Below are positions 11,577-51,958 of a stretch of 55,547 nucleotides of DNA, one piece after another (the stretch's first letter is position 1; the number at the start of each line of letters is the position of its first letter). The DNA comes from a virus: positions 1 through 55,547 of IMG/VR virus record IMGVR_UViG_3300037961_002849; one strand, 5' to 3'. The position numbers and the translations under genes were made by a program. The notes below the pieces were generated by a model, which searched no databases, was not told the origin of the DNA, and saw only the letters and a program-made list of their open reading frames with translations.

Positions 11577-11926
11577 CAGACCACGCCACGCACCGCTGCA
11601 GTAAATGCAAGGAAGTTAAACCTAAACATCAATTCCATAAAAGCAACACCCACTCTGCGGGAGTTCAGCGGTATTGCAAGGGGTGTAAGAAAAAGATAGA
11701 CAGCAAAGGGCACGGGAAGTACAAGGGTAAATATGCCGTGTACTACCTACCAAAACACAACTACATTGGAATGTCAAAGAACTTGACAAAGAGAATGCAG
11801 AAGCATAGAAAGCGTGGCAAAAATACCACGGGATTCAGAGTGTTAATCGCAACAAAAAATGCAAAACTTGCACATACAATAGAAAGTCTTTTTCATATTC
11901 TAGGTTTTAAAGGTTTTAGATATTAA
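11573..11926 (+). CDS. GIY-YIG nuclease with N-terminal zinc ribbon
   Basis: 117 residues. N-terminal C9-x2-C12 and C35-x2-C38 form a zinc ribbon. The GIY-YIG module follows: AVYYLPKHNYIG (55-66, YYL and YIG), R74 in KNLTKRMQKH, and catalytic-type E104 in IESLF. The order zinc ribbon then GIY-YIG is typical of small free-standing homing-type endonucleases of phages. It is the last rightward gene of the early block and overlaps the end of the convergent late gene by 4 nt. Confidence 0.75.
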   Translation: MTDHATHRCSKCKEVKPKHQFHKSNTHSAGVQRYCKGCKKKIDSKGHGKYKGKYAVYYLPKHNYIGMSKNLTKRMQKHRKRGKNTTGFRVLIATKNAKLAHTIESLFHILGFKGFRY

Positions 11927-12390
11927 TCATAATCAATGTAAGTAATACTTACTTCTCCCCCTTCTTCAAGCTCCTTAGCAATCGCCGGATAGATTCTCTT
12001 ATACGCACTAACGCTAGAGCCAATGAATCCATCACTACTACCAAAGTTTGTTTTCTGAGTATCACCAACAAGAAGACACCCAGCAGTGTGCTCATCAGTA
12101 TTACCAGTGTGAATAAGAATGTACTCAAAGTTAGGTACATCACGAACCCATAGCATTCCCTTGTGCATCTCGCCATACTTAGCTGTATATCTGCTATGAA
12201 ATCCTCCAGTAGTACGAAGCGTAACCTTGTAAGTTCCTGCCGGGACTCTAGTCTCTGACATAACCTTTACACTTCTGTGCTCATCCTCTAACGTATAGCA
12301 TAAGAACTTACGCTCCCCACCGCTAACATCAAACAACAATCCGTTTGTGCTGTCTGATTCACTACTAAATCTTAAAACTTCTAGCTCCAT
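11923..12390 (-). CDS. DUF5675 family protein, lysis-associated
   Basis: 155 residues with the DUF5675 pattern: RVPAGTYKVTLR, GMLWVRDVPNFEYILIH, TGNTDEHTAGCLLVG. The block NFEYILIHTGN...H..GC resembles L,D-transpeptidase/YkuD-type active sites with His and Cys. It lies directly after the holin (stop/start overlap of 1 nt), so a role in cell-wall cleavage is likely but not proven. Confidence 0.75.
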   Translation of the reverse strand: MELEVLRFSSESDSTNGLLFDVSGGERKFLCYTLEDEHRSVKVMSETRVPAGTYKVTLRTTGGFHSRYTAKYGEMHKGMLWVRDVPNFEYILIHTGNTDEHTAGCLLVGDTQKTNFGSSDGFIGSSVSAYKRIYPAIAKELEEGGEVSITYIDYD

Positions 12391-12842
12391 TATTTATCAC
12401 TTTTAACTGCTGCCCCAAAGTAATATCCAAAGATCGAAAGGGCAACCCCCTCAACAATACCTATGAGGTGAATGAATATCTCTTTGTTTGTAGCGGGGAC
12501 CTCCAGGAAAACAATTGATAGTACCAAGAACCCAAACGCCGCCAAGCCGACAAGGCCAGTGACATTAAACAACCAATCCTTAGCTCCAGCCTTGATCATG
12601 TCTGACTGACGCTTGCGTGCGCTATCACGATCCGCAACTTCTAGCTTATAGATATCCATCAGTTGATTGTTCAACTCTTGCTTTTCCTCTGGGCTTATCG
12701 GAGTTATATCTGGGTCATCAATCAATCTCTTAACGATGCCCAACGCTCCTTGGTCTGGGAGTAAATCACCTACTACATCTAAAACCTTTGGGGCCTTTTC
12801 TTTTAGAAGCTTCCCCAGCTTCATGTTCTTAATCTTATCCAT
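12390..12842 (-). CDS. Holin, 3-TM GTA type
   Basis: 150 residues. The linker contains ADRDSARKRQSDMIKA, the hallmark of three-TM holins (GTA holin type), followed by two clear membrane helices (TGLVGLAAFGFLVLSIVFL and IHLIGIVEGVALSIFGYYFG) and a short charged tail AAVKSDK. The N-terminal 45 residues are amphipathic. It forms the pore that triggers lysis, together with the DUF5675 protein next to it. It is separated from the giant gene by 1 nt. Confidence 0.75.
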   Translation of the reverse strand: MDKIKNMKLGKLLKEKAPKVLDVVGDLLPDQGALGIVKRLIDDPDITPISPEEKQELNNQLMDIYKLEVADRDSARKRQSDMIKAGAKDWLFNVTGLVGLAAFGFLVLSIVFLEVPATNKEIFIHLIGIVEGVALSIFGYYFGAAVKSDK

Positions 12843-12843
12843 C

Positions 12844-15800
12844 TTAGTTATCTTCTAAATCCAAAAAATAATTTCTAACAATACCGTCTCTGTATGCTCT
12901 CCAAGGATAGACACCGCCAGTATAAGTTCCGCGAGAGTGTCTGTTGTATATGGACTTGAGCGCAGATATTTTCTGAGAGTTGTTCATCTTTTGATAAGCA
13001 GGGCTAGTAACAAGTCTTTTTACATCTTTATACCGAGCTTGACCAAATGATTTCATCATAGCATGAGCGTCCTTAGGCATTATAGATATGTAGTTAGGCT
13101 CATTAACATTAAGCCCATAGTAAGCAGACTCCTGCTTGGTAAGTAATATTTTTAGTTTACCTACCGCTGAAGGGTATCCCGGAATTACATCAGTATCTCC
13201 CGTCTCTTTAAACAAGTTGTATATGTCGATCTTAACCGGGTCTTTTGAGCTTATTCTAGATTTGAATACTCCAAAAGTATTGTACAACCAAGGGTACTCT
13301 TTGTCGCTATCAAAGAAAAGAGAGCCTCCGCCTTCTGGAGTTTGAGTTATAGACTCACCCCAAATGTTTACTCTAGGCACAACGGACTCTCCTAGACCAA
13401 AGAAGTTGAAGGTCTTATCTCGGAGTATGTTTTCCATTGAGTTGTCAATACCCGGGTTCGGATCTCTATAGTCGGGCAAGTACTCGCGTCCAGAGCGGTA
13501 GAATGCACTGAGTGAGTTAGGCAATACAACTGAGAATCCTGCACGCATGATGTTGTCTAAGTACTTGGTTAGCTGTCTCTCATTCGGGTCAGCCAACAAC
13601 TTAATAACCCCATCAATACCAGTCAAGAACGACTGGTCCATCATAGACCCTAAGACCCCGGGGACAACGCCCGTGATATCAGAAATGAAGTCCATAAAGT
13701 TATCAGAGCGGTTCAGTACCTTGGCGTCCATCTGAGCGTCACGCATCACAGCCTTAATACCTACAGCTTGAGCAGCTATAACAGCACCGCCCAGACCAAG
13801 CTTCTGATAGTTAAACCAAACATCATCTGCTTGAAGCGTTGGGTCTTCACCATTAATCAGCCTCTTGACACCGCTAATATTTATAGAGTTCGGAGGAGCA
13901 GTACTATACTTCATGTCTCTTTCCTTCTTTCCGTCCGCATCTATAGGGGTGGTGATCAACCCATCCTCCATCAACTTTTGAGTTGTTTTGTAAAGCAACC
14001 AGCTGATAAATGATTTGGCAAGAAGCTCAGAAAGCTCTCGGTCAGAAACCTTTTTCCCGCCTCTAATAGTTTTCTTTAGAACTAACGATAGCAATGGCAT
14101 AACCGGATGAGCAAGCTGTATACTCTGAGACAAGATATTCGCTGGTGTTTTTATATAAGGGATGTGCATACGCACCATAACACGGAAAGCGTTTTCCAAA
14201 AACGTACTTCTCTCGCCAAGAATATCAGATGCTTTAGCTATAGACTTATTTATAGCTGTGGCAAATTGGTTATCCTCTTGGAAGGTAACTCTTAGTCCTG
14301 CCTTTTCAGCTCTAGCCTTATACTCTTCATTAGGATATTTTAAGAATCTGTTTAGCTCTTCACCCTTCAGACCCAAAGACTTTCCTATACGATGAAGCTC
14401 ATAGCCCTCCATTAATCTATAGAAAGGCATATCACCAAACGCAAGCAGTCTAAACATGATATTAGCGGGACCACCGCCAACAGCCTCTAGGAATTTCTTA
14501 GCACGGAAATTAATCTCGTTTAACTTTGTGCCGTTCTTAACTGAATCCGGGAGCCTATCGCTGTTAGCTAGAATCATACCGAATGCTTTGATAGGAGCCA
14601 GCTGAAGCTGCATGTTGTATTCAAACTTATCATTAGCAATCGCCCTACCAATAGCACTTAGATAAGCTTCTCGAGCGCCAACTCCAAATTGCTTAGCCGC
14701 GTGTATTGCTGCTGGTATAGAAGGTGGCAGTGTAGCAAGAGAAGGGTCGACTTCTCTGCCCATAGATTTCTTAATGCCTCTGATAAGAACCTCAGCACCA
14801 TAGCCCAATGTCTTGTCAGCCAACATTATAGGAAGTGTAGCAAGGTTAGCGGTAATGTTTACCAGCTGAGAAACCGGGGTAAGAAGATTCCCTTGGATTA
14901 TCAACCCAATGAGCCTGCCCCAAGTCGTAGCAAAGTTTGTATTGAAGTCGTTAAGTTTACTGGTAGCTTCAGAAACTCTGTTTCTAGCATCTTCCAGTCT
15001 GTCTTCAATAGCTGGTATCTTGTTAGTCTCTGAGGTTTCTGACAGCTCCTTAATCAAAGACTGAACGTCTTGTTGCGCGTCGAACAACTCATCAACAATA
15101 CCCCCCATGGTTTCATACTCAGAATCAGATAGAGTTGTGCCGTTAGCCTCGTAGATATTGTCTACTAGATCTTTCATGCCTGCCGGGGTTTGCCCTTTAA
15201 CCTCAGCAAACTGGCGGAGCAACTGCCCCACAGCAGTACCCGTCTCAAAGAAACGCTTCAAGACAGCTCTGTATTCTTTTGTCTTCCCTTGATTCTGTAA
15301 TCTTTTTAAATATTCAAGTGTCGCTAGCACACGGAAGTCTCCACCAGCTAAAGAGCTCATCGCGTCGTTGATTACAGAAGGATTATCGCCATCAGAAATA
15401 GCGATATCTTTCATCTCAGCAAGCAACTCCTCAATAGACATTGTCTCTAGCTCAGATTTAATCTGATCGATCTTCTGAGGCTCATAGAACCTAGACATAT
15501 CTTCAGCTAAATCCTTTCTGATTGACGCCTCAAATGGGACGTTAGGGTCTAAGCTCTTGAACATCTTGCGAGCATGACGTCTTTCTTTTGTCTCTAGCCT
15601 AGCTCGATCACCGCTATCTACATACCATTCTGGGTAGAAGATACCGCCGGCTCTCTCAAATACTTGATCTTGAGCTTCATCGAAAGAAATGTTTCCGTCA
15701 GCATACTCTTGCCATATAGCACGAACGTCAGACTTGTTTTTCTTCTGAGCCTTAAATCCAGGCGTGAATAAAGTCCTAACGGCTTCCCAAGTAATAGACT

Positions 15801-18800
15801 GCATCTCTCTTGCGAGCAAGCCTTTTTGTTCTGCAGCATTACGATAAGCCTCAGCGTAAGCAAAGTATACACCTTTGATTCCAAGGTTAGAGCTACCAGC
15901 TTTAACATCGATAGCCGCAGTACCACCACCAAAGTTATGGAAGACCTCAGCGTCTGAGCCCGATAGAGGGAGAAGTTCTGCAGCAGCTACAGCATGAGTG
16001 TCTATGGTTACGTCTCCCGTGTCTGAGTTCGGGTCGTTGATGTTGTTAAAGAATGATCTCACTTTGTGCTGATCGCCTACTTTAGAATCAATGTTTTCCA
16101 TCGTGCCATCGATAGCGATAGAGGTAGCAGAGGAAATCTCAGCATAAGAACCCCAGGCCATTGTCTTCATCTCTCCATTAGCCTTCTTGCCATATCCAAT
16201 GCGCTCGCCAATAGGGCTGACGATGTGATAGTTGCGATCCTCAAACATCTCGTTATATGTACGCACGAACATCGCAGACTCCAAAGCAGCGTTATCGCCT
16301 TCAATTATTTCTCTTAGAGACTTGCCCACCATGCCTTGAAGCACAGCCTTTCTTTTTAAGTATGATTTGTAAGCCTCTTTAGTGGCCTTTCTTTTAAAGT
16401 CTTGCTGGTTTAGAATTTTATTCTTGACCTTCCGCATATTTCTCAGAGCGGTATTATACATAGACTTGCTAAACTCAGTGTCTTTCTGACTGCTCATCAC
16501 GCGCATCACTGACTCGCCAAGGGCGATGTTCTGATACCAATCCTTCTGAGGAGAAAGCGCAGCCAAGATACCCGCAGCCTGCTCTTGAGTATAGCCATAG
16601 CGAACAGCTAGGTCTTGAGCGGTAAGGTTTGCACCTACGTACCAAAGCTTTGAGTACTTCCTTACATCTTCGCTAAACGAATCATGAAGTTTGATTAAGT
16701 TTCTAGTAGCTCGGTCAACAAAAGTTTTGTAGATTTCATCTGCTCTGGTAATCTCTGCATCAGTGGGCTCGCGTTTGATGTCTAATTTTTTAGCATCCTT
16801 AATGTCCGACATGAAAGTGTGTGTAGACAAAATATAAGCACCACGAACATATACCTTAGGAGCAAACTCTTTGGTATACTCCATTGTAATTTGTCGAGAG
16901 CCGTCAAAGTTAGTGGTATTGTCAGCTGACGCAGAAGTGTTTCTAGCTGGTGATACTCTGCTTCCAGCCCCAACCTTATCTACAGCTTGTGCTACAATCT
17001 TATCATCTAGACGCGCGCGATTGCCGTTCTGCATGTAGTCAAGCTTATCTTTAAGAGACTGCAATATCTCTGCCTCTTGCTTAGCTCTTTGCTCAAATAT
17101 CCCTTGGAACCTAGTCTGAATGCTTTCGGGTTCAAACAGCGGAGTCTCAAATCTAGAAATCATATCCTTGAGTCCAGGCTCGTCTATGTTTTTAGTAAGC
17201 TCTTCTGCTATGACTCCAGCAGAAAAAGGTATAGATGAATTATCTCTATATGCGGCAAACAAACTGGTTCCGTCAACATAAGGAATCTGTATGCCATATC
17301 CGGACTGCGTCACTAAATCTCTAGCCGGATCTACTTCGATAGAGATAGGATTCACATCGGGGAGCCTTAGGTCTTCACGAAGATTATATCCATCTTTAGG
17401 CTTATGCAAAACATCATGCTGTGTTATTATCGCCTCGTCTTTTATTGTGGCATATTGAGGGATAAACTTGTTCTTTGTTCCCTCACTGACTTCGTTCTTA
17501 AAGAAAAGATTTCTAGCAATGGTACTTTCATTACCCATTAACATGTGGTTACTTTGATGACCGTCTATATCAAACACCTCGAACATCGGGAATCCGTTAA
17601 TGGTAGTTTGAGTTTTTGAGAAACCCACATTAAAGTCATGAAGATCTGGAGCAGCAATCCCAAGCTTTGCCATTGAACCAGTCATCTGCCAAATGTTCAT
17701 CGCATACCCTACGAGATCATCAATGGTCATTCTACCATCGCGCTCTGCTCTACCAATAGGATTATCAGCAGATCTTGTGAATCCATCTTTTTCAAGGATA
17801 TCGTTGAGTGCTCTAGAGGCCTCTTCGTCTTGCATCACTGCTAACAAATGCAAACCAACATTTTCGGTTTTTGCTATATCTATAGCGGTTTCGTAGATGT
17901 CTCCTGGACTTGGACCAATAGTCTCTACTAGACTAAATGACTTGTAGTAAACATCATGAATAGCTCTAACAATAAGTCTATAAATATCTTGAGCAGTGAC
18001 ATCTACGCCTCTATCAAACTTATCTGTTTTAATATCTACGTAATCCTTTGTAACAAACACGTGAGAGCCAGTGCCCATAAACGTATCAGCAGCATCTAAG
18101 AACATCGCGCCCATCCCATGATACTTAGCAAGCCCAGGGAGCTTTCCATTATACTTGTTTAAGTATATGGCCGATATCTGAGACTCTCTTAAACTCCTTG
18201 TTTGTTTAACTACTGTTTTACCGTCAAGTGTTTCAACCTCATAGGCGACTCCATAAGCACCATCACCGAGCCTTCTAACCTTAGAGATAGCCATGCCTTG
18301 AGACAGCATATACTCTTCAAGCCTAGCTCTATTAGCGGTAGTTGGTGTGCTCTTTTGTTCTGCCGATTGAGCGCTTTCAACACGGTACTCATTTATAATT
18401 TCTTGTATTTTTTCACTAACCCGCCCTCGATAATCTATAAAGTCGTCGCCGTTTACAGCAAGTCTAAAAGCCTTGGATGAGGTTGACTCATCAACAAAGA
18501 AAAGCCTATTGTGCATTACCCGCATGAACCTATTGTCTTGCTCAGAGTGCATAAGATTAACAACACCCAGGGTGTCTAGTATTTTTCTTATGGCATCTGA
18601 ACCCGGCTCACCAACAGACTCAGCATCCGATATAGATACACCTTCGGCGTCAAGGATAGACTTTATCATTGTTGGTGTGATAATATCCAACCCTGCCTGC
18701 TCGTAAAAATATTTTGCTGAAAACTTGTTCTCGCTAGGACCATCTGAATAAAAGACATCTGTTGATGATTCTTCGCGAATGTTTCTTGATGCAGTATTAA

Positions 18801-21800
18801 TGTTATCTCGATAAATTTTAATAACACGAGCTTGATGCTCGGTAGGCTCTAAATCATCGAATCGCTTCATCTCATTCACAAGTTGGCCGTCTATATCAAA
18901 CAACTTGTACTGAGAATACTTCTGAAACTTATCAGTGCTTTGAGGCTGAGCAAATCCAATGTTGCCGTAGTGAACATCTGGCGCAATGAAACCAATCTTC
19001 TCTAAACTCTCACTCATTTGGTAAGCATTATCTAAATAAGCTAATGCAAGATCAAACATCTCGAGTTTTGTAAATGGTATTGTAGAATCATATACCTCAG
19101 AATAATCATCTGGGAAATTCATTTCTGTGAATGCTCGCGCACCGCTTTCTATTATGTCTGCTAGATAAGTATACATAGATTCACTTACAGCGCCAGGAAT
19201 GGTACTGTCTGATCCAATATATTCTCTTAAAAAATTGTTTATTATTTCCCCAATTTCAAGAGGCGTGACAGTGCTCCCTTCTTCAGCAGTCATGATTGTC
19301 GGCACAAACTCTTTAATCTGATAAATCAAAGGCTCTGTCTTGCCGGTAGCAGAAACAGCAACATCATAATACTCTGCAAGGCCGGGTAGGTTTCCGTTAA
19401 ACTCACGCACATACACAGCGGAAGCTATTGTTTCTGTAACAGATTGAGCTTCTTTAACTACCACGTTGTTACCGCTAGCGTCTTTAACCAAGAATGCATA
19501 TCCAAAAGCTCCAGACCCTAGGACCTTCATCTCTGATAGGTCTAGGTTTCTATCTAAGGCAAAGTCTACCAGTCGAGCTCTGTCTCCATCATTAGCATCG
19601 CGCTCTTGACGCATTGCCTTACCCGGATTATTGTTCGGGTTTTCTTTGATTCGTTTAGCGATATCAAGGATATATATCTTCTGACCGCTACGATATCCCT
19701 GCGTTACTCTTTCTACTAAGTTTACGAGCTCATTCTCGCTCTTGAGTTTGAAACTAGAGAGCTTGCCAGATAATATTTTATTTATAGCACGTCTAGACTT
19801 ACCCTTAAATGTTGCATCAAGCTGATTTAAGTTGTCGTTTATGTCTGCTATAATACCAACGATCACCTCTTCCTCCGCAACAGCTATGGCGTGTTCTTCG
19901 GAATGCCCTCTCTCTATATAAAATGTAACGTAGTCATTGAATCGCTCATCCATTTTTTGACGAAGAGATTCATTATTGATGCTTTGTAAATCGTTGTATA
20001 AAGAAGTGCGAACCCTTGGCTCTAGAACCATGATATTACGCAGACCTGCGTGAGCAAATTCCTCGCGGATCGCCGCAGTAGTTGCGTTGAACATAACGTG
20101 AATAGCTGGTCCACCTTCTCTTTCGTGCTCATAGAACGCTTCATAAGGGCCTCCAGTAGCACGCTGTAAAGACTGTTTTGTTCTATGAATGATAACACGG
20201 GGGGCTTCAGTGTACTTATCTGTAAACGCATTGTATGCGCTGTTAAGCATCTTCGCTATACGAGGGGTAACTCCGTGACGTTTTGGATTTACCGCACCAC
20301 CACGAATCTCTATAGAATTATCTATCTCCTCAGAAGCTTCTCTTGCTTGCTCTAGAGATGACGCTGCCTCCTCCGCGGCGCTTGGCGCTACTCGCTGGGC
20401 TGGCCTAGGAGCTGGCTCAACACTTGGTTGCGCTTCTGTTGCGGCAGGTTCATCAACCTCTGGTATAGATCGTTCTGCTGTTTGCTCTGCTGCGAACTCT
20501 CGTTCGGCTTGCTCAATGGCTTGTCTTGCTGTTTCATTGCTCTCAATTATTTGGTTAACTTTTGCTCTATCTGATGGGTTTTCTCTAGCTGATAATAATA
20601 TTTGATATGCAGCATCCATAGCATCTTGCCCGTATAGCTCAACTACTGCACCGCTTTCGTCTTTCATTTGCACACGAACACCGCGCTCTGCCTCTGCAGA
20701 AATAGCGGTTGGTGTTTCTAATGGTACAAACTGACCCCCACCAAATATAGATATCGCGTTTACCCCAACCTCTGGGTCAATGCTAAGTCTTGTGCCTTCT
20801 GCTATGTTCGGGTTATCTGGTTTTTGGTACAAGAAAGTACCGTCTTCTTGAACCGCTAATGTCTGACGTTCAGCAATCGCAGGCTCAAACATTCTAATAG
20901 TAGATGGGTCCACCTCGCTGCGCTGCCCAAGTTCTACTTTTTCTGTTTCAGTCTCAACCACCAATGTAGGATTCTCTGGAGTACCCTCAAGGCGGAGAGT
21001 ACCTTGTACCTCTGTCCCGTCTATAGGTCTTTCTGCGATAACCTCAGTGCCATCTTCAAGTGTATTGATAGTTATAGGGTCTACTGTAGAAGCGCCTTCT
21101 GCTACGGAGCGAGCTTCAGTAGGAACGACTGGTGTAGCCAACTGGTCCATGTCAATTGGGTCAATAGCTGGGGCAACTTCCTCAACTTCAAAGACACCAA
21201 AATTATCCATTAGGGTTACAATCTCAGCACCTAATCTTGATTTAAGTTTTGTATCTGTGGCCTCCCGCATTTCTTGTTGGAGGGAAAATATTTTTTGACT
21301 CTTGTCAATTAAATCTAATTGTTGATCTTGAGTCAGTTCTTCGAAAGCTCTAATGTTTGCATTGAGCATTTCGTATTTTTTATTTCTAAACTCTTTTAGG
21401 TCGTCTTTTAGGGTTTGCTTAGCTTCTTTGCCCCTTACTTTTTTAAGCTGGTCTTTAGTCTCTTGTATCTTTTGCTCTACTACTTGTACTTGACCATCAC
21501 CCATAAGTGAAGCAGCGGTTGTTATACTACTTCCGTTGGCTTTGTTTTTTTGCGCCCACTGAACATAGGTTCTCTCTGAAGTAGGTGTCATAAGTTCGTT
21601 ATAGCGTGAGCTTACAGCTCGAGTAGCTGCCGCAGGAGCTGCCATCACTGGCCCCCCGAGCGCTTCCATAACAATATCAAGACCCGATGTAACTTCCCCT
21701 TCTTCAGCAATCTGACCGGCAGTTTCACCTAATGCACCACCAGTAGCGTCAACTAATATTTCTGCTCCTGCAGCCTTCATTACGCTACCGCCAGCTTTTC

Positions 21801-22818
21801 TTACAGCTTGTGCGGTTGTCCCCCCAGCTCCGGCCAATAATGCGTCAACAGAAGCAATAATAGCTGCGCGCACTTTCCTGCGCTCCATTGCATCATGAAT
21901 TTTTTTTAAGCCCTCTTCTGACTCAAATGTCTTTGCGATTTCTTCGGGGTCGGTTGTGTCGATGTGTAGTTCTTCCATTGCCATACTTATGGCCTCAGAC
22001 ATCTCAAGGGCATAAGACCCTGCAAATGCTGTCCCCGTGGCCAAACCAACACCAGTACCTATAAGATAACCCGCGGGTACAGTAATCTCAGCAAGTGGAC
22101 CACCAGCAAGACCACTAGCAACTCCAACAGCCTGGCCTTCGGCAACACTAGCGGATACTGTTTTAAGCGCCCCCTCACTAGCAAAGCCCGAGACTACAGA
22201 AGAGAAAAAATTACCAAGCAATTCTGGGAGAACAACATTTGTAATTCCGGACACACTGCCAAAAGAAGCCCAAGTCAATGGGTCTTTTTCGTTTCTGTAT
22301 TTTTCTTGAAGCTCGTTGTAATAAGCTAATCGCTCAGCAGCATCTATATTATTCTCTGGATCGCCATCTAATAAATCCTCTTTAGCACCAGTAGCCAATC
22401 CAGTGGCTACAAAGTTATTATACCATCTAGCAGCGCTGCCAAACCAGTCGTCTCTTTCTACAAACCAGTCGTCAGCAATAAGTGCATGACGATATTCTCT
22501 ATCGTTTATTTCTTGGGGCTTATTATTGGGGGCTGAGCTTTGTACAAACCTTTCTTCTAAAAGGTCATCCGAGAAATTTGTAAAGTCAGACTTTTGCTCG
22601 TATGATAAGTCCAAACCAGTATCTTCCAATCCAAAATCCGTAGTAGGAGTGACTTGGGGCGGTAGTTGAGTTTGAACTTTTTTTTTACTAAAAGATTCTA
22701 GGGCACGAGTTACTTCATCATAAGAAAACCCATTATCAATACCCATTGCGAACAAGCGGTCCTCGCTGTATCCACTATCAAAGCCGCTCTGCAATAACTG
22801 CAGTAATTCCTCGTTCAT
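12844..22818 (-). CDS. Giant internal virion/ejection protein with two kinase-like domains
   Basis: 3324 residues, the largest gene. Modules in order: acidic helical start; Gly/Ala-rich hydrophobic segments (about 215-275 and 315-375); coiled-coil and acidic linkers (430-900); a zincin-like block EEFAH (919-923) with the first His lost; kinase-like module 1: G-loop GSGAFG 1101-1106, K1122, D1281..N1286, DIDG 1308-1311; kinase-like module 2: GDGAYG 1518-1523, K1538, D1725..N1730, DIDG 1750-1753; a module with ALSPQKDW (about 2082-2089) and IDTHA (about 2272); then a long C-terminal core/ejection region with hydrophobic stretches (about 2640-2680). A (D/N)RARL motif begins at 1079, 1496, 1933 and 2404, at module boundaries. 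Its position after tail-tube and internal proteins suggests ejection into the host; enzymatic activity is not shown. Confidence 0.75.
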   Translation of the reverse strand: MNEELLQLLQSGFDSGYSEDRLFAMGIDNGFSYDEVTRALESFSKKKVQTQLPPQVTPTTDFGLEDTGLDLSYEQKSDFTNFSDDLLEERFVQSSAPNNKPQEINDREYRHALIADDWFVERDDWFGSAARWYNNFVATGLATGAKEDLLDGDPENNIDAAERLAYYNELQEKYRNEKDPLTWASFGSVSGITNVVLPELLGNFFSSVVSGFASEGALKTVSASVAEGQAVGVASGLAGGPLAEITVPAGYLIGTGVGLATGTAFAGSYALEMSEAISMAMEELHIDTTDPEEIAKTFESEEGLKKIHDAMERRKVRAAIIASVDALLAGAGGTTAQAVRKAGGSVMKAAGAEILVDATGGALGETAGQIAEEGEVTSGLDIVMEALGGPVMAAPAAATRAVSSRYNELMTPTSERTYVQWAQKNKANGSSITTAASLMGDGQVQVVEQKIQETKDQLKKVRGKEAKQTLKDDLKEFRNKKYEMLNANIRAFEELTQDQQLDLIDKSQKIFSLQQEMREATDTKLKSRLGAEIVTLMDNFGVFEVEEVAPAIDPIDMDQLATPVVPTEARSVAEGASTVDPITINTLEDGTEVIAERPIDGTEVQGTLRLEGTPENPTLVVETETEKVELGQRSEVDPSTIRMFEPAIAERQTLAVQEDGTFLYQKPDNPNIAEGTRLSIDPEVGVNAISIFGGGQFVPLETPTAISAEAERGVRVQMKDESGAVVELYGQDAMDAAYQILLSARENPSDRAKVNQIIESNETARQAIEQAEREFAAEQTAERSIPEVDEPAATEAQPSVEPAPRPAQRVAPSAAEEAASSLEQAREASEEIDNSIEIRGGAVNPKRHGVTPRIAKMLNSAYNAFTDKYTEAPRVIIHRTKQSLQRATGGPYEAFYEHEREGGPAIHVMFNATTAAIREEFAHAGLRNIMVLEPRVRTSLYNDLQSINNESLRQKMDERFNDYVTFYIERGHSEEHAIAVAEEEVIVGIIADINDNLNQLDATFKGKSRRAINKILSGKLSSFKLKSENELVNLVERVTQGYRSGQKIYILDIAKRIKENPNNNPGKAMRQERDANDGDRARLVDFALDRNLDLSEMKVLGSGAFGYAFLVKDASGNNVVVKEAQSVTETIASAVYVREFNGNLPGLAEYYDVAVSATGKTEPLIYQIKEFVPTIMTAEEGSTVTPLEIGEIINNFLREYIGSDSTIPGAVSESMYTYLADIIESGARAFTEMNFPDDYSEVYDSTIPFTKLEMFDLALAYLDNAYQMSESLEKIGFIAPDVHYGNIGFAQPQSTDKFQKYSQYKLFDIDGQLVNEMKRFDDLEPTEHQARVIKIYRDNINTASRNIREESSTDVFYSDGPSENKFSAKYFYEQAGLDIITPTMIKSILDAEGVSISDAESVGEPGSDAIRKILDTLGVVNLMHSEQDNRFMRVMHNRLFFVDESTSSKAFRLAVNGDDFIDYRGRVSEKIQEIINEYRVESAQSAEQKSTPTTANRARLEEYMLSQGMAISKVRRLGDGAYGVAYEVETLDGKTVVKQTRSLRESQISAIYLNKYNGKLPGLAKYHGMGAMFLDAADTFMGTGSHVFVTKDYVDIKTDKFDRGVDVTAQDIYRLIVRAIHDVYYKSFSLVETIGPSPGDIYETAIDIAKTENVGLHLLAVMQDEEASRALNDILEKDGFTRSADNPIGRAERDGRMTIDDLVGYAMNIWQMTGSMAKLGIAAPDLHDFNVGFSKTQTTINGFPMFEVFDIDGHQSNHMLMGNESTIARNLFFKNEVSEGTKNKFIPQYATIKDEAIITQHDVLHKPKDGYNLREDLRLPDVNPISIEVDPARDLVTQSGYGIQIPYVDGTSLFAAYRDNSSIPFSAGVIAEELTKNIDEPGLKDMISRFETPLFEPESIQTRFQGIFEQRAKQEAEILQSLKDKLDYMQNGNRARLDDKIVAQAVDKVGAGSRVSPARNTSASADNTTNFDGSRQITMEYTKEFAPKVYVRGAYILSTHTFMSDIKDAKKLDIKREPTDAEITRADEIYKTFVDRATRNLIKLHDSFSEDVRKYSKLWYVGANLTAQDLAVRYGYTQEQAAGILAALSPQKDWYQNIALGESVMRVMSSQKDTEFSKSMYNTALRNMRKVKNKILNQQDFKRKATKEAYKSYLKRKAVLQGMVGKSLREIIEGDNAALESAMFVRTYNEMFEDRNYHIVSPIGERIGYGKKANGEMKTMAWGSYAEISSATSIAIDGTMENIDSKVGDQHKVRSFFNNINDPNSDTGDVTIDTHAVAAAELLPLSGSDAEVFHNFGGGTAAIDVKAGSSNLGIKGVYFAYAEAYRNAAEQKGLLAREMQSITWEAVRTLFTPGFKAQKKNKSDVRAIWQEYADGNISFDEAQDQVFERAGGIFYPEWYVDSGDRARLETKERRHARKMFKSLDPNVPFEASIRKDLAEDMSRFYEPQKIDQIKSELETMSIEELLAEMKDIAISDGDNPSVINDAMSSLAGGDFRVLATLEYLKRLQNQGKTKEYRAVLKRFFETGTAVGQLLRQFAEVKGQTPAGMKDLVDNIYEANGTTLSDSEYETMGGIVDELFDAQQDVQSLIKELSETSETNKIPAIEDRLEDARNRVSEATSKLNDFNTNFATTWGRLIGLIIQGNLLTPVSQLVNITANLATLPIMLADKTLGYGAEVLIRGIKKSMGREVDPSLATLPPSIPAAIHAAKQFGVGAREAYLSAIGRAIANDKFEYNMQLQLAPIKAFGMILANSDRLPDSVKNGTKLNEINFRAKKFLEAVGGGPANIMFRLLAFGDMPFYRLMEGYELHRIGKSLGLKGEELNRFLKYPNEEYKARAEKAGLRVTFQEDNQFATAINKSIAKASDILGERSTFLENAFRVMVRMHIPYIKTPANILSQSIQLAHPVMPLLSLVLKKTIRGGKKVSDRELSELLAKSFISWLLYKTTQKLMEDGLITTPIDADGKKERDMKYSTAPPNSINISGVKRLINGEDPTLQADDVWFNYQKLGLGGAVIAAQAVGIKAVMRDAQMDAKVLNRSDNFMDFISDITGVVPGVLGSMMDQSFLTGIDGVIKLLADPNERQLTKYLDNIMRAGFSVVLPNSLSAFYRSGREYLPDYRDPNPGIDNSMENILRDKTFNFFGLGESVVPRVNIWGESITQTPEGGGSLFFDSDKEYPWLYNTFGVFKSRISSKDPVKIDIYNLFKETGDTDVIPGYPSAVGKLKILLTKQESAYYGLNVNEPNYISIMPKDAHAMMKSFGQARYKDVKRLVTSPAYQKMNNSQKISALKSIYNRHSRGTYTGGVYPWRAYRDGIVRNYFLDLEDN

Positions 22819-34301: not shown

Positions 34302-34676
34302 ATGAAGAATGTAATTCTAGTGTTAGCAATTTTATTAGTAACACAAACTCAAGCACAAAGTCTATTTAAAGACACCCGAGTGGTAAACGGAGTAAGATAT
34401 ACCGCTGCGTACAACAGCCCGGAAAAGGTAATGTATGTTCAGCAAGACCACTTTGATTTTACTCTAGCTGCAGACAGCTTTTCAATTCAAGTAATGAACG
34501 ATATTCAGTGGAATGCGTACGTAGACTTTATTGTTAAAGAAGAGGATGCTTTTTTTAGAGATGGGATGTACTATCTTCCCAATGATGAGCAAGTATTTAA
34601 TACAAAAAAAGAAGATGAGTTTTTAGATGGCACATACATCTACCATCTTTTTGGGTCAGTGGATAGTGGTCAATAG
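34302..34676 (+). CDS. Secreted protein in the late region, opposite strand
   Basis: 124 residues with an N-terminal signal peptide (MKNVILVLAILLVTQTQA, cleavage likely after A18). The mature part is beta-rich and acidic with many aromatic residues and no recognised domain. It is the only sizeable rightward gene within about 43 kb of leftward genes and carries its own promoter (34243), GCCTTATG start motif and bidirectional terminator. This autonomous layout is that of a moron-type accessory gene; a role in the host envelope or periplasm is inferred. Confidence 0.7.
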   Translation: MKNVILVLAILLVTQTQAQSLFKDTRVVNGVRYTAAYNSPEKVMYVQQDHFDFTLAADSFSIQVMNDIQWNAYVDFIVKEEDAFFRDGMYYLPNDEQVFNTKKEDEFLDGTYIYHLFGSVDSGQ

Positions 34677-35611: not shown

Positions 35612-35794
35612 TTATTTACCCTTCACGGCATCTATAACATCCTTCGCCTCATCCACAGCATTGCTAGCCCTACGCTGCGTTTCTTCTACGGCTGCTATAA
35701 CTTTCTCGTCTAGCTCAGTCTGACCTAGAACGTATTTCCAAAAACGGCTATAGGTTTCTTTAATCCAAAGCCAAAATACTTTTAAATGTTTCAT
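35612..35794 (-). CDS. Small amphipathic protein
   Basis: 60 residues. The N-terminal MKHLKVFWLWIKETYSRFWK is an aromatic amphipathic helix able to lie on a membrane; the rest is a charged helix (ELDEKVIAAVEETQRRASNA). It is located in the envelope/lysis cluster (2 nt after the barrel gene), so a membrane-associated role is plausible. Confidence 0.55.
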   Translation of the reverse strand: MKHLKVFWLWIKETYSRFWKYVLGQTELDEKVIAAVEETQRRASNAVDEAKDVIDAVKGK

Positions 35795-35796
35795 AT

Positions 35797-36906
35797 CTAT
35801 CTAAACTGGTAATTAAGTCCACACTTTACTAAATAGAGCTCTCTATCCCAATACTTCATATATTCTCCCTCGATAAAGATACCCCAATTCAATCCAACTT
35901 TATACCCCAGTATTAGACCAGCGGAGTAGTCCATCCACTGCCCGGGTATCCAGTGGTTTGTAGTTTCTAGTTGATCCGCAAAATTCTCATAAGAAAAATT
36001 AAGATCACCTACAACGTGCCTATGCCAAGGCAATAAGTTTGCCCAAGAGTGAATCCAGAAGTCCTCGTTATAGTGATAATAGTCAACACCCATTATTGCG
36101 GACACGCTACCCAAAGCACCTATGCTGTCTAGTTTTGTTCTGTTGTAATCGTTGACGATGTCTCCATAAATATATTTACGAAAGTCTTCATCTGTATCAG
36201 CGACCTTAACTCCATTAGCATCTTCCCAGAACCAATCAAAATTATCTAGGACATCATCATTGTCATAATCAATGCCGTAGTAATAGTCTTCATATCCATA
36301 TTCAAAAGCAAGCTCCCACCAAGGGTTAAACTGTAAATAATCAGCAATAGGATTATAACCGTATGGCATATGCTGTCTGTACGCAGCTCCTAAGCTAAAG
36401 TCTAATTCTCCTAAATGAAGTCTTAAACGAGTATCAACCTGGGTATAGTTTAGATTAACCAGTCCTTGATCATAATACTCGCCCTTTACCATGAAGTACT
36501 TATTCAAGTACCTTAAAAAGTATCTTTGATTGATGTAGTCTCTACCCTGCTGTCTGCCTCTATCGTACTGAGCTAGGTATTCAAATCCCTTAACAGCTCC
36601 TACAGTAGCAGCGGTAGAAGTGTTTGACTGATTATGCCCATCGTAAAATCTATTCTGACGATTCTCATATTCAAATCTAGCTACACGACGAATCCCTACT
36701 GTAGCTCTGTAGTCAAAAGGATTTTCAATAGTTATGTTTTGCAAGTCGCCGCCTTGAGTGACATAGTATTCTGTCTGCGCCTCCATAGGAGATGCGGCCA
36801 TGGCACTAGTATAAACAGTGCTGTACTTAAAAAAATTCTTTACAATGTTTTGAGAAAACGATTGTGTTGATATGATAAAGAATGTTATTAAAAATATTTT
36901 TTTCAT
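35797..36906 (-). CDS. Outer-membrane beta-barrel-like protein
   Basis: 369 residues with a clear signal peptide (MKKIFLITFFIISTQSFSQ). The mature part is rich in Tyr, Trp and Asp with alternating beta pattern and ends in CGLNYQFR, close to the aromatic C-terminal strand signal of outer-membrane proteins. A phage gene of this kind could be a receptor mimic or block (superinfection exclusion), or take part in release through the outer membrane. It lies in a cluster with an exported thioredoxin-like protein, a TM/coiled-coil protein and a transglycosylase. Confidence 0.65.
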   Translation of the reverse strand: MKKIFLITFFIISTQSFSQNIVKNFFKYSTVYTSAMAASPMEAQTEYYVTQGGDLQNITIENPFDYRATVGIRRVARFEYENRQNRFYDGHNQSNTSTAATVGAVKGFEYLAQYDRGRQQGRDYINQRYFLRYLNKYFMVKGEYYDQGLVNLNYTQVDTRLRLHLGELDFSLGAAYRQHMPYGYNPIADYLQFNPWWELAFEYGYEDYYYGIDYDNDDVLDNFDWFWEDANGVKVADTDEDFRKYIYGDIVNDYNRTKLDSIGALGSVSAIMGVDYYHYNEDFWIHSWANLLPWHRHVVGDLNFSYENFADQLETTNHWIPGQWMDYSAGLILGYKVGLNWGIFIEGEYMKYWDRELYLVKCGLNYQFR

Positions 36907-36907
36907 C

Positions 36908-37261
36908 TTACCACTTGTTAGCCCCCGTTATTTTATCGACCTCTTCTTGAAGTTCTGAATAGTGAATGTCTAGATTTAATGAAAGACCTGCTTCCCACCG
37001 CTTTATCTCCTTACCATTATTATACAAAATAACAGTAGGGACAGAGCGTATACCTTCACTCTCTTTTAATTCTGGATCCTTGTCTATCCAAGCTTTGTAT
37101 ATTTTACAATCCTTTACTCTGGCTATATCTGAAAAATTGTTTGACGAATTAAACTCTGCGTTATAATGCACCAACACAATTCCTTTAACGCTAATCTTGT
37201 TCTTATTATCAAATGTTTGTGACGGCACTAAAAAGAGCACTGCTAGAATTAAGTTTTTCAT
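36908..37261 (-). CDS. Exported thioredoxin-fold protein without CxxC
   Basis: 117 residues with a hydrophobic N-terminal export signal (MKNLILAVLFLVPSQTF). VLVHYNAEFNSSNNFSD (29-45) occupies the position of the thioredoxin VDFWAxWCxxC block, but both Cys are absent. KIYKAWIDKDPEL, then RSVPTVILYNNGKEI (72-86) contains the cis-Pro loop. It should therefore be redox-inactive and may act as a binding or folding protein in the periplasm. It is 1 nt from the barrel gene. Confidence 0.7.
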   Translation of the reverse strand: MKNLILAVLFLVPSQTFDNKNKISVKGIVLVHYNAEFNSSNNFSDIARVKDCKIYKAWIDKDPELKESEGIRSVPTVILYNNGKEIKRWEAGLSLNLDIHYSELQEEVDKITGANKW

Positions 37262-37262
37262 A

Positions 37263-37541
37263 TCACTTCATTTCAAATAATCTTTCTTCGATCTTATCTA
37301 ACTGAGTTTTAATTTCCTTAACATCGCCCTGGGTGTTCATTATAGTTTCACGAACAAGCTCATCTTTGAGGTCGTATTCTGTTCGGCTAATTACTGGCGC
37401 AGGAAGCTCTTTTGCTTCTTCAATACCCGCTTGAAGATCAAAGTAGCCTATAGTTAGAACGCCTACACCCGCGACAATGGCCCCTATGGTTTTAAGAGAC
37501 AAGCCAATTACTGTGTTTTCAGATATTTCTTTTGGTTGCAT
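37263..37541 (-). CDS. Membrane/coiled-coil protein, possible spanin-like
   Basis: 92 residues with one membrane helix (IGLSLKTIGAIVAGVGVLTIGYF) and a C-terminal coiled coil (GDVKEIKTQLDKIEERLFEM). This topology suits an inner-membrane spanin or holin accessory. Adjacent to the transglycosylase (1-nt stop/start overlap). Confidence 0.6.
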   Translation of the reverse strand: MQPKEISENTVIGLSLKTIGAIVAGVGVLTIGYFDLQAGIEEAKELPAPVISRTEYDLKDELVRETIMNTQGDVKEIKTQLDKIEERLFEMK

Positions 37542-38425
37542 TATTTGCTTTGTTTTAAATCGTCGTATGCCTTCATATCCATGATAAAAGAGTTAACCCT
37601 TTCATCTTTATTTTTTTCTTTTCCTGCCCAATGATAGTCTGCCCAGTATTCTACCAATGGCATTTTACCAGTAAATAAGTCTGCTAAATCAGCTTTTGGA
37701 TGGGCAAGCTGATTCATTAAGAACAGATATTTTTGTTGCTCTAAAGATACGGTAGAAGCGTCAAAAGACTTAGAGGGGTATGCATCTTTAATCCAAGAGG
37801 GAATCTCGTACTTTGAGAGCTCTGGATGTGACTGATCTTTACCGCTGATAAGGTTGTACGCTCGGTTTATAGCGATGATGCCCCCATGTCCGTCGCCGAC
37901 TTCAAATTGAAAAGCACCACGCCCCGGTCCTCCGCCTTTTTGTTTTATGACTGGATCCCCCTTTGACTCATGAAATATAATTCTACTCATCACATCTTCA
38001 ATCTGTTCTGGAGACGACCCTTTTGTTCTGGCCACATAGCTTACAAGCTCTTGATAGCTGAGCTCTTTTTCTGGAGCATTTACAACACCGCCCTCTTCAA
38101 ATCTTCTTTTCTGGGATTTTGGTGGAGATTTCTTGCTTCCTCCTGGACCTGCCCAAAAAAGCTTGTCGGCCCAGTAAGCCGCGCTCATTTTACCCTTAGC
38201 GATGTTCTTAGCATGGCGCGCTTTAAAAGACTTACGCGCATCTTTAGAATAGTTGTGCCCCATCTTCTGATCTCCAAAACGAATCAAACGCACCTTGTTG
38301 CCGACCTTCGCGAGAACAACTCCTTTTTTTGTCGGGTGGCTTGGCGTGCGCTTAGCTTTGTTAACCCCTTTAAGACCGTGCTTTTTAAGGAGTCTCTTGA
38401 TTCTTTTTTTTAGATCGGTGCTCAT
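37541..38425 (-). CDS. Transglycosylase/lysozyme-like endolysin
   Basis: 294 residues. The N-terminal about 100 residues are basic and contain KKGVVLAKVGNKVRLIRFGD and KSFKARHAKNIAKGKMSAAY, a motif set often fused to or beside lysis/structural genes. The C-terminal half has MSRIIFHESKGDP with E153 as the catalytic Glu and GRGAFQFEVG (169-178), typical of transglycosylase-like lysozyme folds. It opens the envelope cluster behind a -7 box only 4 nt from its ATG. Confidence 0.75.
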   Translation of the reverse strand: MSTDLKKRIKRLLKKHGLKGVNKAKRTPSHPTKKGVVLAKVGNKVRLIRFGDQKMGHNYSKDARKSFKARHAKNIAKGKMSAAYWADKLFWAGPGGSKKSPPKSQKRRFEEGGVVNAPEKELSYQELVSYVARTKGSSPEQIEDVMSRIIFHESKGDPVIKQKGGGPGRGAFQFEVGDGHGGIIAINRAYNLISGKDQSHPELSKYEIPSWIKDAYPSKSFDASTVSLEQQKYLFLMNQLAHPKADLADLFTGKMPLVEYWADYHWAGKEKNKDERVNSFIMDMKAYDDLKQSK

Positions 38426-38429
38426 GAAG

Positions 38430-38437
38430 CAAAGATA
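38430..38437 (-). promoter_or_regulatory. -7 box TATCTTTG of the envelope cluster
   Basis: Leftward TATCTTTG, 4 nt upstream of the ATG at 38425. Transcription would start almost at the ATG (leaderless or nearly so). Confidence 0.6.
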
Positions 38438-51826: not shown

Positions 51827-51958
51827 ATGAAACGATTACTTATTATTTTATCCGCTACACTACTAACGGCTTGCGCGAGCAGCTCCTCCAGCATAGACAT
51901 TACCCAGTGTGCTGTTGATGGTTGTGATATAGCTGCGATACATCATCACGCATGGTAG
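51827..51958 (+). CDS. Small outer-membrane lipoprotein (43 aa)
   Basis: MKRLLIILSATLLTAC carries a lipobox LTAC (Cys16), then ASSSSS and a short Cys/His-rich tail (CAVDGCD, HHHAW). It runs opposite to its neighbours, starts 44 nt beyond the terminase start, and overlaps the end of the 51900 gene by 59 nt in antisense. The leader is AT-rich (TTAAATTAACACTGGAAAAT). Similar tiny lipoproteins act as Rz1-type outer-membrane spanins or as exclusion lipoproteins; which one applies is unknown. Confidence 0.6.
   Translation: MKRLLIILSATLLTACASSSSSIDITQCAVDGCDIAAIHHHAW

Follow-up and report, generated by a model that had tools for sequence, protein, structure and literature searches.

An exchangeable envelope module of a small membrane protein and a CxxC-less thioredoxin-like protein, with an optional putative outer-membrane barrel, in uncultured marine phages

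We studied a cluster of envelope-related genes in a stretch of viral DNA of 55,547 bases (IMG/VR virus record IMGVR_UViG_3300037961_002849, taken whole), called here the window. The terminase and portal proteins of the window matched phage families: the terminase shared 42-47% identity with its counterparts in Flavobacterium elemo phages and a Manatee Spring podovirus, and Cellulophaga phages were also among the matches. The Bacteroidetes-type -7 promoter element TAnnTTTG was present within 60 nt 5' of 13 of the 58 window genes (2.0 +/- 1.5 expected). The terminase relatives and the enrichment of this element suggest that the host is a member of the Bacteroidetes, probably a flavobacterium. 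Elsewhere in the window, a 3,324-aa ORF (12844-22818) probably codes for a structural protein of giant size, like that of elemo phages, and a gene on the opposite strand within the late region (34302-34676, positive strand) encodes a 124-aa signal-peptide protein whose relatives are alike in the signal peptide and divergent beyond it.

The genes of the cluster lie on the negative strand and are transcribed in the order 294 aa, 92 aa (TM92), 117 aa (pseudo-thioredoxin) and 369 aa (barrel), followed by a 60-aa gene (Table 1). The first two overlap by one base (37541), the 92-aa/117-aa and 117-aa/369-aa junctions are 1-base gaps, and the 60-aa gene starts 2 bases past the barrel gene. The initial annotation had described the first four as consecutive, overlapping or abutting genes behind one near-leaderless promoter; ORFs, order and coordinates were all as claimed, and the term near-leaderless is correct since 4 nt separate the end of the element TATCTTTG from the first ATG. 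The 60 nt ahead of each of the 92-aa, 117-aa and barrel genes contained no TAnnTTTG element.

Table 1 Positions of the cluster genes and associated features in the window
Feature	Position	Strand	Remarks
Holin-like (150 aa, two C-terminal TMs) and DUF5675 gene pair	11923..12842	-	DUF5675 confirmed, and kept by relatives whether or not they carry the module; apart from the cassette
60-aa flank gene	35612..35794	-	Conserved right edge of the slot; kept whichever module fills it
369-aa putative 12-stranded outer-membrane barrel	35797..36906	-	Optional third part; AlphaFold2 models, Foldseek, signal-like N-terminus
Pseudo-thioredoxin, 117 aa	36908..37261	-	Module core; predicted signal peptide and thioredoxin fold, NxxN for CxxC, cis-Pro retained
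TM92, 92-aa predicted type II inner-membrane protein	37263..37541	-	Module core; one TM (11-29), then coiled-coil-like
294-aa flank gene	37541..38425	-	Conserved left edge of the slot; N-terminal basic domain (phrog_7595) and lysozyme-like motif
Bacteroidetes-type -7 promoter element TATCTTTG (TAnnTTTG)	38430..38437	-	4 nt ahead of the ATG of the 294-aa gene

Pfam and PHROG searches with the 369-aa protein gave no match, and a PDB profile search gave nothing useful. Its structure was judged from AlphaFold2 models, a first one with 21 relatives (pLDDT 69.9) and a second one with 47 relatives of identity as low as 35% (pLDDT 80.7, pTM 0.71; 76 to 81 over the five models), both showing a closed antiparallel barrel of 12 strands. 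If the N-terminus is placed in the periplasm, the periplasmic turns are short save for residues 75-106, and longer extracellular loops are predicted at 39-64, 180-264 (85 aa) and 300-325. The 32-aa segment 75-106 was modelled with low confidence, and its conservation among close relatives was 0.85 versus 0.78 for the strands. Foldseek matches were outer-membrane barrels (NanC, EspP, NalP and FapF); that to NanC had E-values of 3.8e-6 and 1.9e-5 and probability 1.0, with a query TM-score of only 0.31-0.36. Because global TM-scores on the query were low throughout (0.2-0.36), we limit the assignment to the barrel class and propose no relationship. The best match in BFVD was A0A516LKJ4 (25% identity, E 7e-25), and the N-termini of the family are signal-like. 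The protein is very probably a 12-stranded outer-membrane barrel. A barrel with a signal peptide was what the initial annotation had proposed, to be given up if the protein were found outside the outer membrane or its structure were not a barrel; on the structural half of this check the proposal survived. The module provides a putative family of phage-encoded outer-membrane barrels.

TM92 has a single TM followed by a coiled-coil-like region, as had been noted before, and the distribution of charges places the C-terminal coiled coil in the periplasm, a topology that we infer from sequence. PHROG matches of TM92 were weak and uninformative (phrog_1009, E 0.002), and an antisense ORF over its gene (cluster c9) was rejected as an artefact. 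Two TM92 relatives (L066:8779-9357 and L067:7429-8007) carry an additional N-terminal region in which one may recognise, by eye, the N-terminal domain of type II/IV secretion ATPases. Genes downstream in L067 encode pilin-like proteins that have the N-methylation motif (PF07963).

The 117-aa protein of the window matched the thioredoxin family PF00085 with E 5e-4, below the cut-off of that family, which two of its relatives (L126 and L207) exceeded; a profile of the family found thioredoxins in the PDB with E about 1e-5. Active-site positions were numbered on the sequence of E. coli thioredoxin. Asn replaced the first active-site Cys in 107 of 116 family members and the second in 101, the cis-Pro was present in all 116, and a CxxC motif was absent from the mature part of every one. 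The N-termini were signal-peptide-like, many with AQ or SQ at the end; signal peptides ending in this way are typical of Bacteroidetes. The protein is probably exported and, with CxxC replaced by NxxN, has probably kept the fold of the thioredoxin family and its cis-Pro loop and lost the redox chemistry; we propose that it serves as a binding scaffold. It would represent a new family of redox-dead thioredoxins, with Asn conserved at the active-site positions. The earlier description of a Cys-less exported thioredoxin was right as to fold, signal and lack of CxxC but loose in wording, as the window copy has one Cys.

We then inspected 123 non-redundant loci, of which TM92 was present in 114, counts that are shaped by the searches that recruited the loci. 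The pseudo-thioredoxin gene directly followed TM92 in all 114, mostly at a spacing of -4, +1 or +2 bases, while 58 loci had the barrel gene behind the pair and 18 had it in front; in 37 it was unseen (some of these loci are short). The true unit is therefore TM92 plus pseudo-thioredoxin, with the barrel as an optional part; the occurrence of the pair in those 37 loci ruled out the barrel as the core. The dN/dS ratios of the three genes were 0.02-0.1 in most sufficiently diverged pairs, which indicates strong purifying selection and marks the genes as more than chance ORFs. When IMG/VR contigs were scanned with TM92, at least 562 relatives were obtained, and none of the three proteins gave a module match among 50,697 sequenced phage records, where the search for the pseudo-thioredoxin returned ordinary thioredoxins only. 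The pair is thus common in uncultured marine viral contigs and yet no laboratory phage has revealed it. A prophage or host origin of the module was considered and set aside, one MAG fragment being all that was found.

The four-gene unit proposed initially did not hold, as the 294-aa gene remains in place when the cassette is swapped (see below) and is a flank outside the module. It had been called a transglycosylase: the lysozyme-like motif (HES.GD..KQ.GGGPG.GAFQFE, with a catalytic-Glu-like residue) is real and conserved, but Pfam and PDB profile searches gave no SLT or lysozyme domain match, which leaves a muramidase or transglycosylase identity putative. The N-terminal 91 residues of the 294-aa protein form a basic domain (phrog_7595) common to cyanophages and roseophages, which is also present in a minor head/DNA pilot family and occurs alone ahead of the module in other lineages.

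The flank genes delimit a slot that is filled differently in colinear phages. The window and five further loci (L002-L006) have TM92, pseudo-thioredoxin and barrel between the 294-aa and 60-aa genes. In three others (L219, L220 and L225) the same position is occupied by membrane/coiled-coil genes of 125, 96 and 103 aa, a module of multi-TM plus coiled-coil proteins, between homologous flanks (79% identity for the 294-aa gene, 73% for the 60-aa gene, 82% for a 66-aa gene and 69% for part of the capsid-side gene). In L224 the cargo starts with a TM protein of 52 aa, continues with a membrane PAS histidine kinase of 410 aa and a stand-alone receiver of 145 aa, and ends with proteins of 189 and 108 aa; kinase and receiver were both confirmed by Pfam. 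A scan with the u-spanin-like lipoprotein (see below) revealed a second slot, unrelated to the first, with a 2-TM holin-like gene on one side and the u-spanin gene on the other. Its cargo was the pair with barrel in 11 loci, the pair alone in 4 and the kinase module in L256 and L276; otherwise it contained the 103-aa module (5 loci with full upstream context) or DUF5675, or was empty. Two-component systems accompanied by coiled-coil/TM proteins were thus located in a slot of the TM92 module at L224:2762-5453, L256:489-3004 and L276:241-2977. The modules of the two slots are homologous, with identities of 50-65% for the kinase, 79-88% for the receiver and 53-55% for the 103-aa protein.

When 26 contigs were searched whole, TM92 was found in 19, the receiver in 3, the 103-aa protein in 4, and two module types together in none. 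This lack of co-occurrence is supportive rather than conclusive, as slot content guided the choice of the contigs, several of which are fragments, and as physical competition of the modules for one slot could be enough to explain such an absence. Three module types filling two unrelated slots, never together in these contigs, indicate that the module is accessory and exchangeable, and its accessory nature is also seen in 4 contigs that keep DUF5675 and have no cassette. In our view the cassette belongs to a set of at least three accessory envelope modules that replace one another in uncultured marine phages, whose hosts are probably flavobacteria.

The initial annotation had also pointed to a second lysis pair at the other end of the late region; it is present, its 150-aa member next to DUF5675 having two C-terminal TMs, and lies about 23 kb from the window cassette, which shows that adjacency of the module to a holin gene is not universal. 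A lysis-type gene was found within a few genes of the module in 71 of the 114 loci (raw count). In the second slot, the neighbour on one side belongs to a 138-aa family with, by sequence, a lipobox (SSC) and a TM at 114-132, in line with the definition of a u-spanin by an N-terminal lipobox and a C-terminal TM (PMC6139136). DUF5675 adjoins a holin-like gene, near the u-spanin, at L277:2528-3004 and L279:1482-1958, an arrangement which suggests that it is a lysis gene of these phages, perhaps the endolysin. The proposal that the cluster may be an outer-membrane remodelling or superinfection-exclusion system separate from the holin lysis pathway could be kept in part. The exported set with its barrel stands, and the cassette is dispensable to the holin/DUF5675 pair, as in the 4 contigs mentioned, but many relatives carry the module between 2-TM holin-like and u-spanin-like genes, against the claimed separation.

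Because the module encodes predicted envelope proteins beside lysis genes, is swapped with a sensor kinase module and is dispensable, we favour, tentatively, a role in the control of the end of infection: among the readings weighed here the most likely, though short of an even chance, is that it tunes lysis timing. In this scheme TM92 would sit in the inner membrane with its coiled coil extending into the periplasm, where the NxxN thioredoxin would serve as a scaffold, and the phage-made barrel would form an optional end in the outer membrane, so that the three together could connect both membranes across the periplasm. Such a complex may sense how the envelope stands, or that a further phage is arriving, and adjust lysis timing, akin to the action of RI on the holin T in phage T4. 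The T4 antiholin RI is a periplasmic protein with a cleavable signal peptide; it binds T and is believed to act as a sensor of superinfection (PMC8385771, PMC11413866). Compared by topology alone, both systems have a single-TM protein with a periplasmic part beside a secreted periplasmic partner and would act as accessory lysis control; they differ in that the partner in the module has a thioredoxin fold, that a barrel is often added and that other holin genes are present. TM92 is also much smaller than T. Against a role in lysis timing, known lysis-timing systems need no outer-membrane barrel. A bolder form of the proposal, possible but doubtful, is that the trans-envelope module is functionally equal to the phage two-component system, both belonging to a class of exchangeable control modules of lysis loci, and that infecting phages perceive the envelope or superinfection and set the time of lysis by several unrelated devices. 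Literature searches gave no match for control of lysis by two-component systems of phages, for phage thioredoxins that lack CxxC or for phage barrels in lysis cassettes.

The main rival, which we consider somewhat unlikely, is superinfection exclusion, in which the late barrel, pseudo-thioredoxin and TM92 would block adsorption or DNA entry and the other slot modules would be alternative exclusion devices. Accessory, exchangeable envelope proteins would suit this role, as would an outer-membrane barrel with conserved extracellular loops, but a histidine kinase with a stand-alone receiver is odd as an exclusion device, the pair persists without the barrel, and the PADLOC models of known anti-phage defence gave no match for the three window proteins. 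An improbable alternative is that the module acts in lysis itself, helping envelope rupture as an additional or substitute spanin-like step. It resembles the spanins (Rz/Rz1 and the T1 gp11 u-spanin; PMC6139136) in the envelope-spanning idea, in the holin/endolysin neighbourhood and in the i-spanin-like build of TM92, a type II membrane protein with a coiled coil; in one lineage it lies between holin and u-spanin, and the window gave no u-spanin match and has, as its sole convincing lipoprotein candidate, a 43-aa ORF (51827-51958) whose lipobox (MKRLLIILSATLLTAC) is good and which lies on the positive strand, the late genes being on the other. The trio differs from spanins, however, in having no lipoprotein, a lipobox being absent from the window TM92, pseudo-thioredoxin and barrel; the pair-bearing loci of the u-spanin lineage retain their u-spanin-like gene, which weakens the barrel as a spanin substitute, and colinear phages manage without the module.

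Quite improbable, too, is a host-physiology set, with the barrel as a nutrient or efflux porin late in infection and the pair aiding its assembly. NanC, FapF and porins were among the best structural matches, but the low TM-scores on the query make any inference of substrate weak, the pair is kept in the loci where the barrel was unseen, and the module is swapped with sensor modules. Prophage-encoded outer-membrane barrels are known near lysis or late genes, as with Lom of lambdoid phages and the NmpC/Lc porin; the module barrel differs in being tied to an obligate membrane protein/pseudo-thioredoxin pair, and in phages not known as temperate. That the proteins belong to the virion or its assembly is very improbable: the window module sits between tail fibre and capsid genes, but two of the three proteins have predicted signal peptides and the position of the module varies between lineages.

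The exchange of the module for a two-component system in the same slot amounts to a series of natural swap experiments, and the pattern suggests late-infection control by modules of a new kind. If these modules time lysis or exclude rivals, the decisions that phages take at the end of infection would be broader than the T4 model. Note that one 82-kb contig (IMGVR_UViG_3300021389_000010) carried two differing cassettes of TM92, pseudo-thioredoxin and barrel about 60 kb apart (L024 and L039), which may correspond either to joined phages or to a true duplication.
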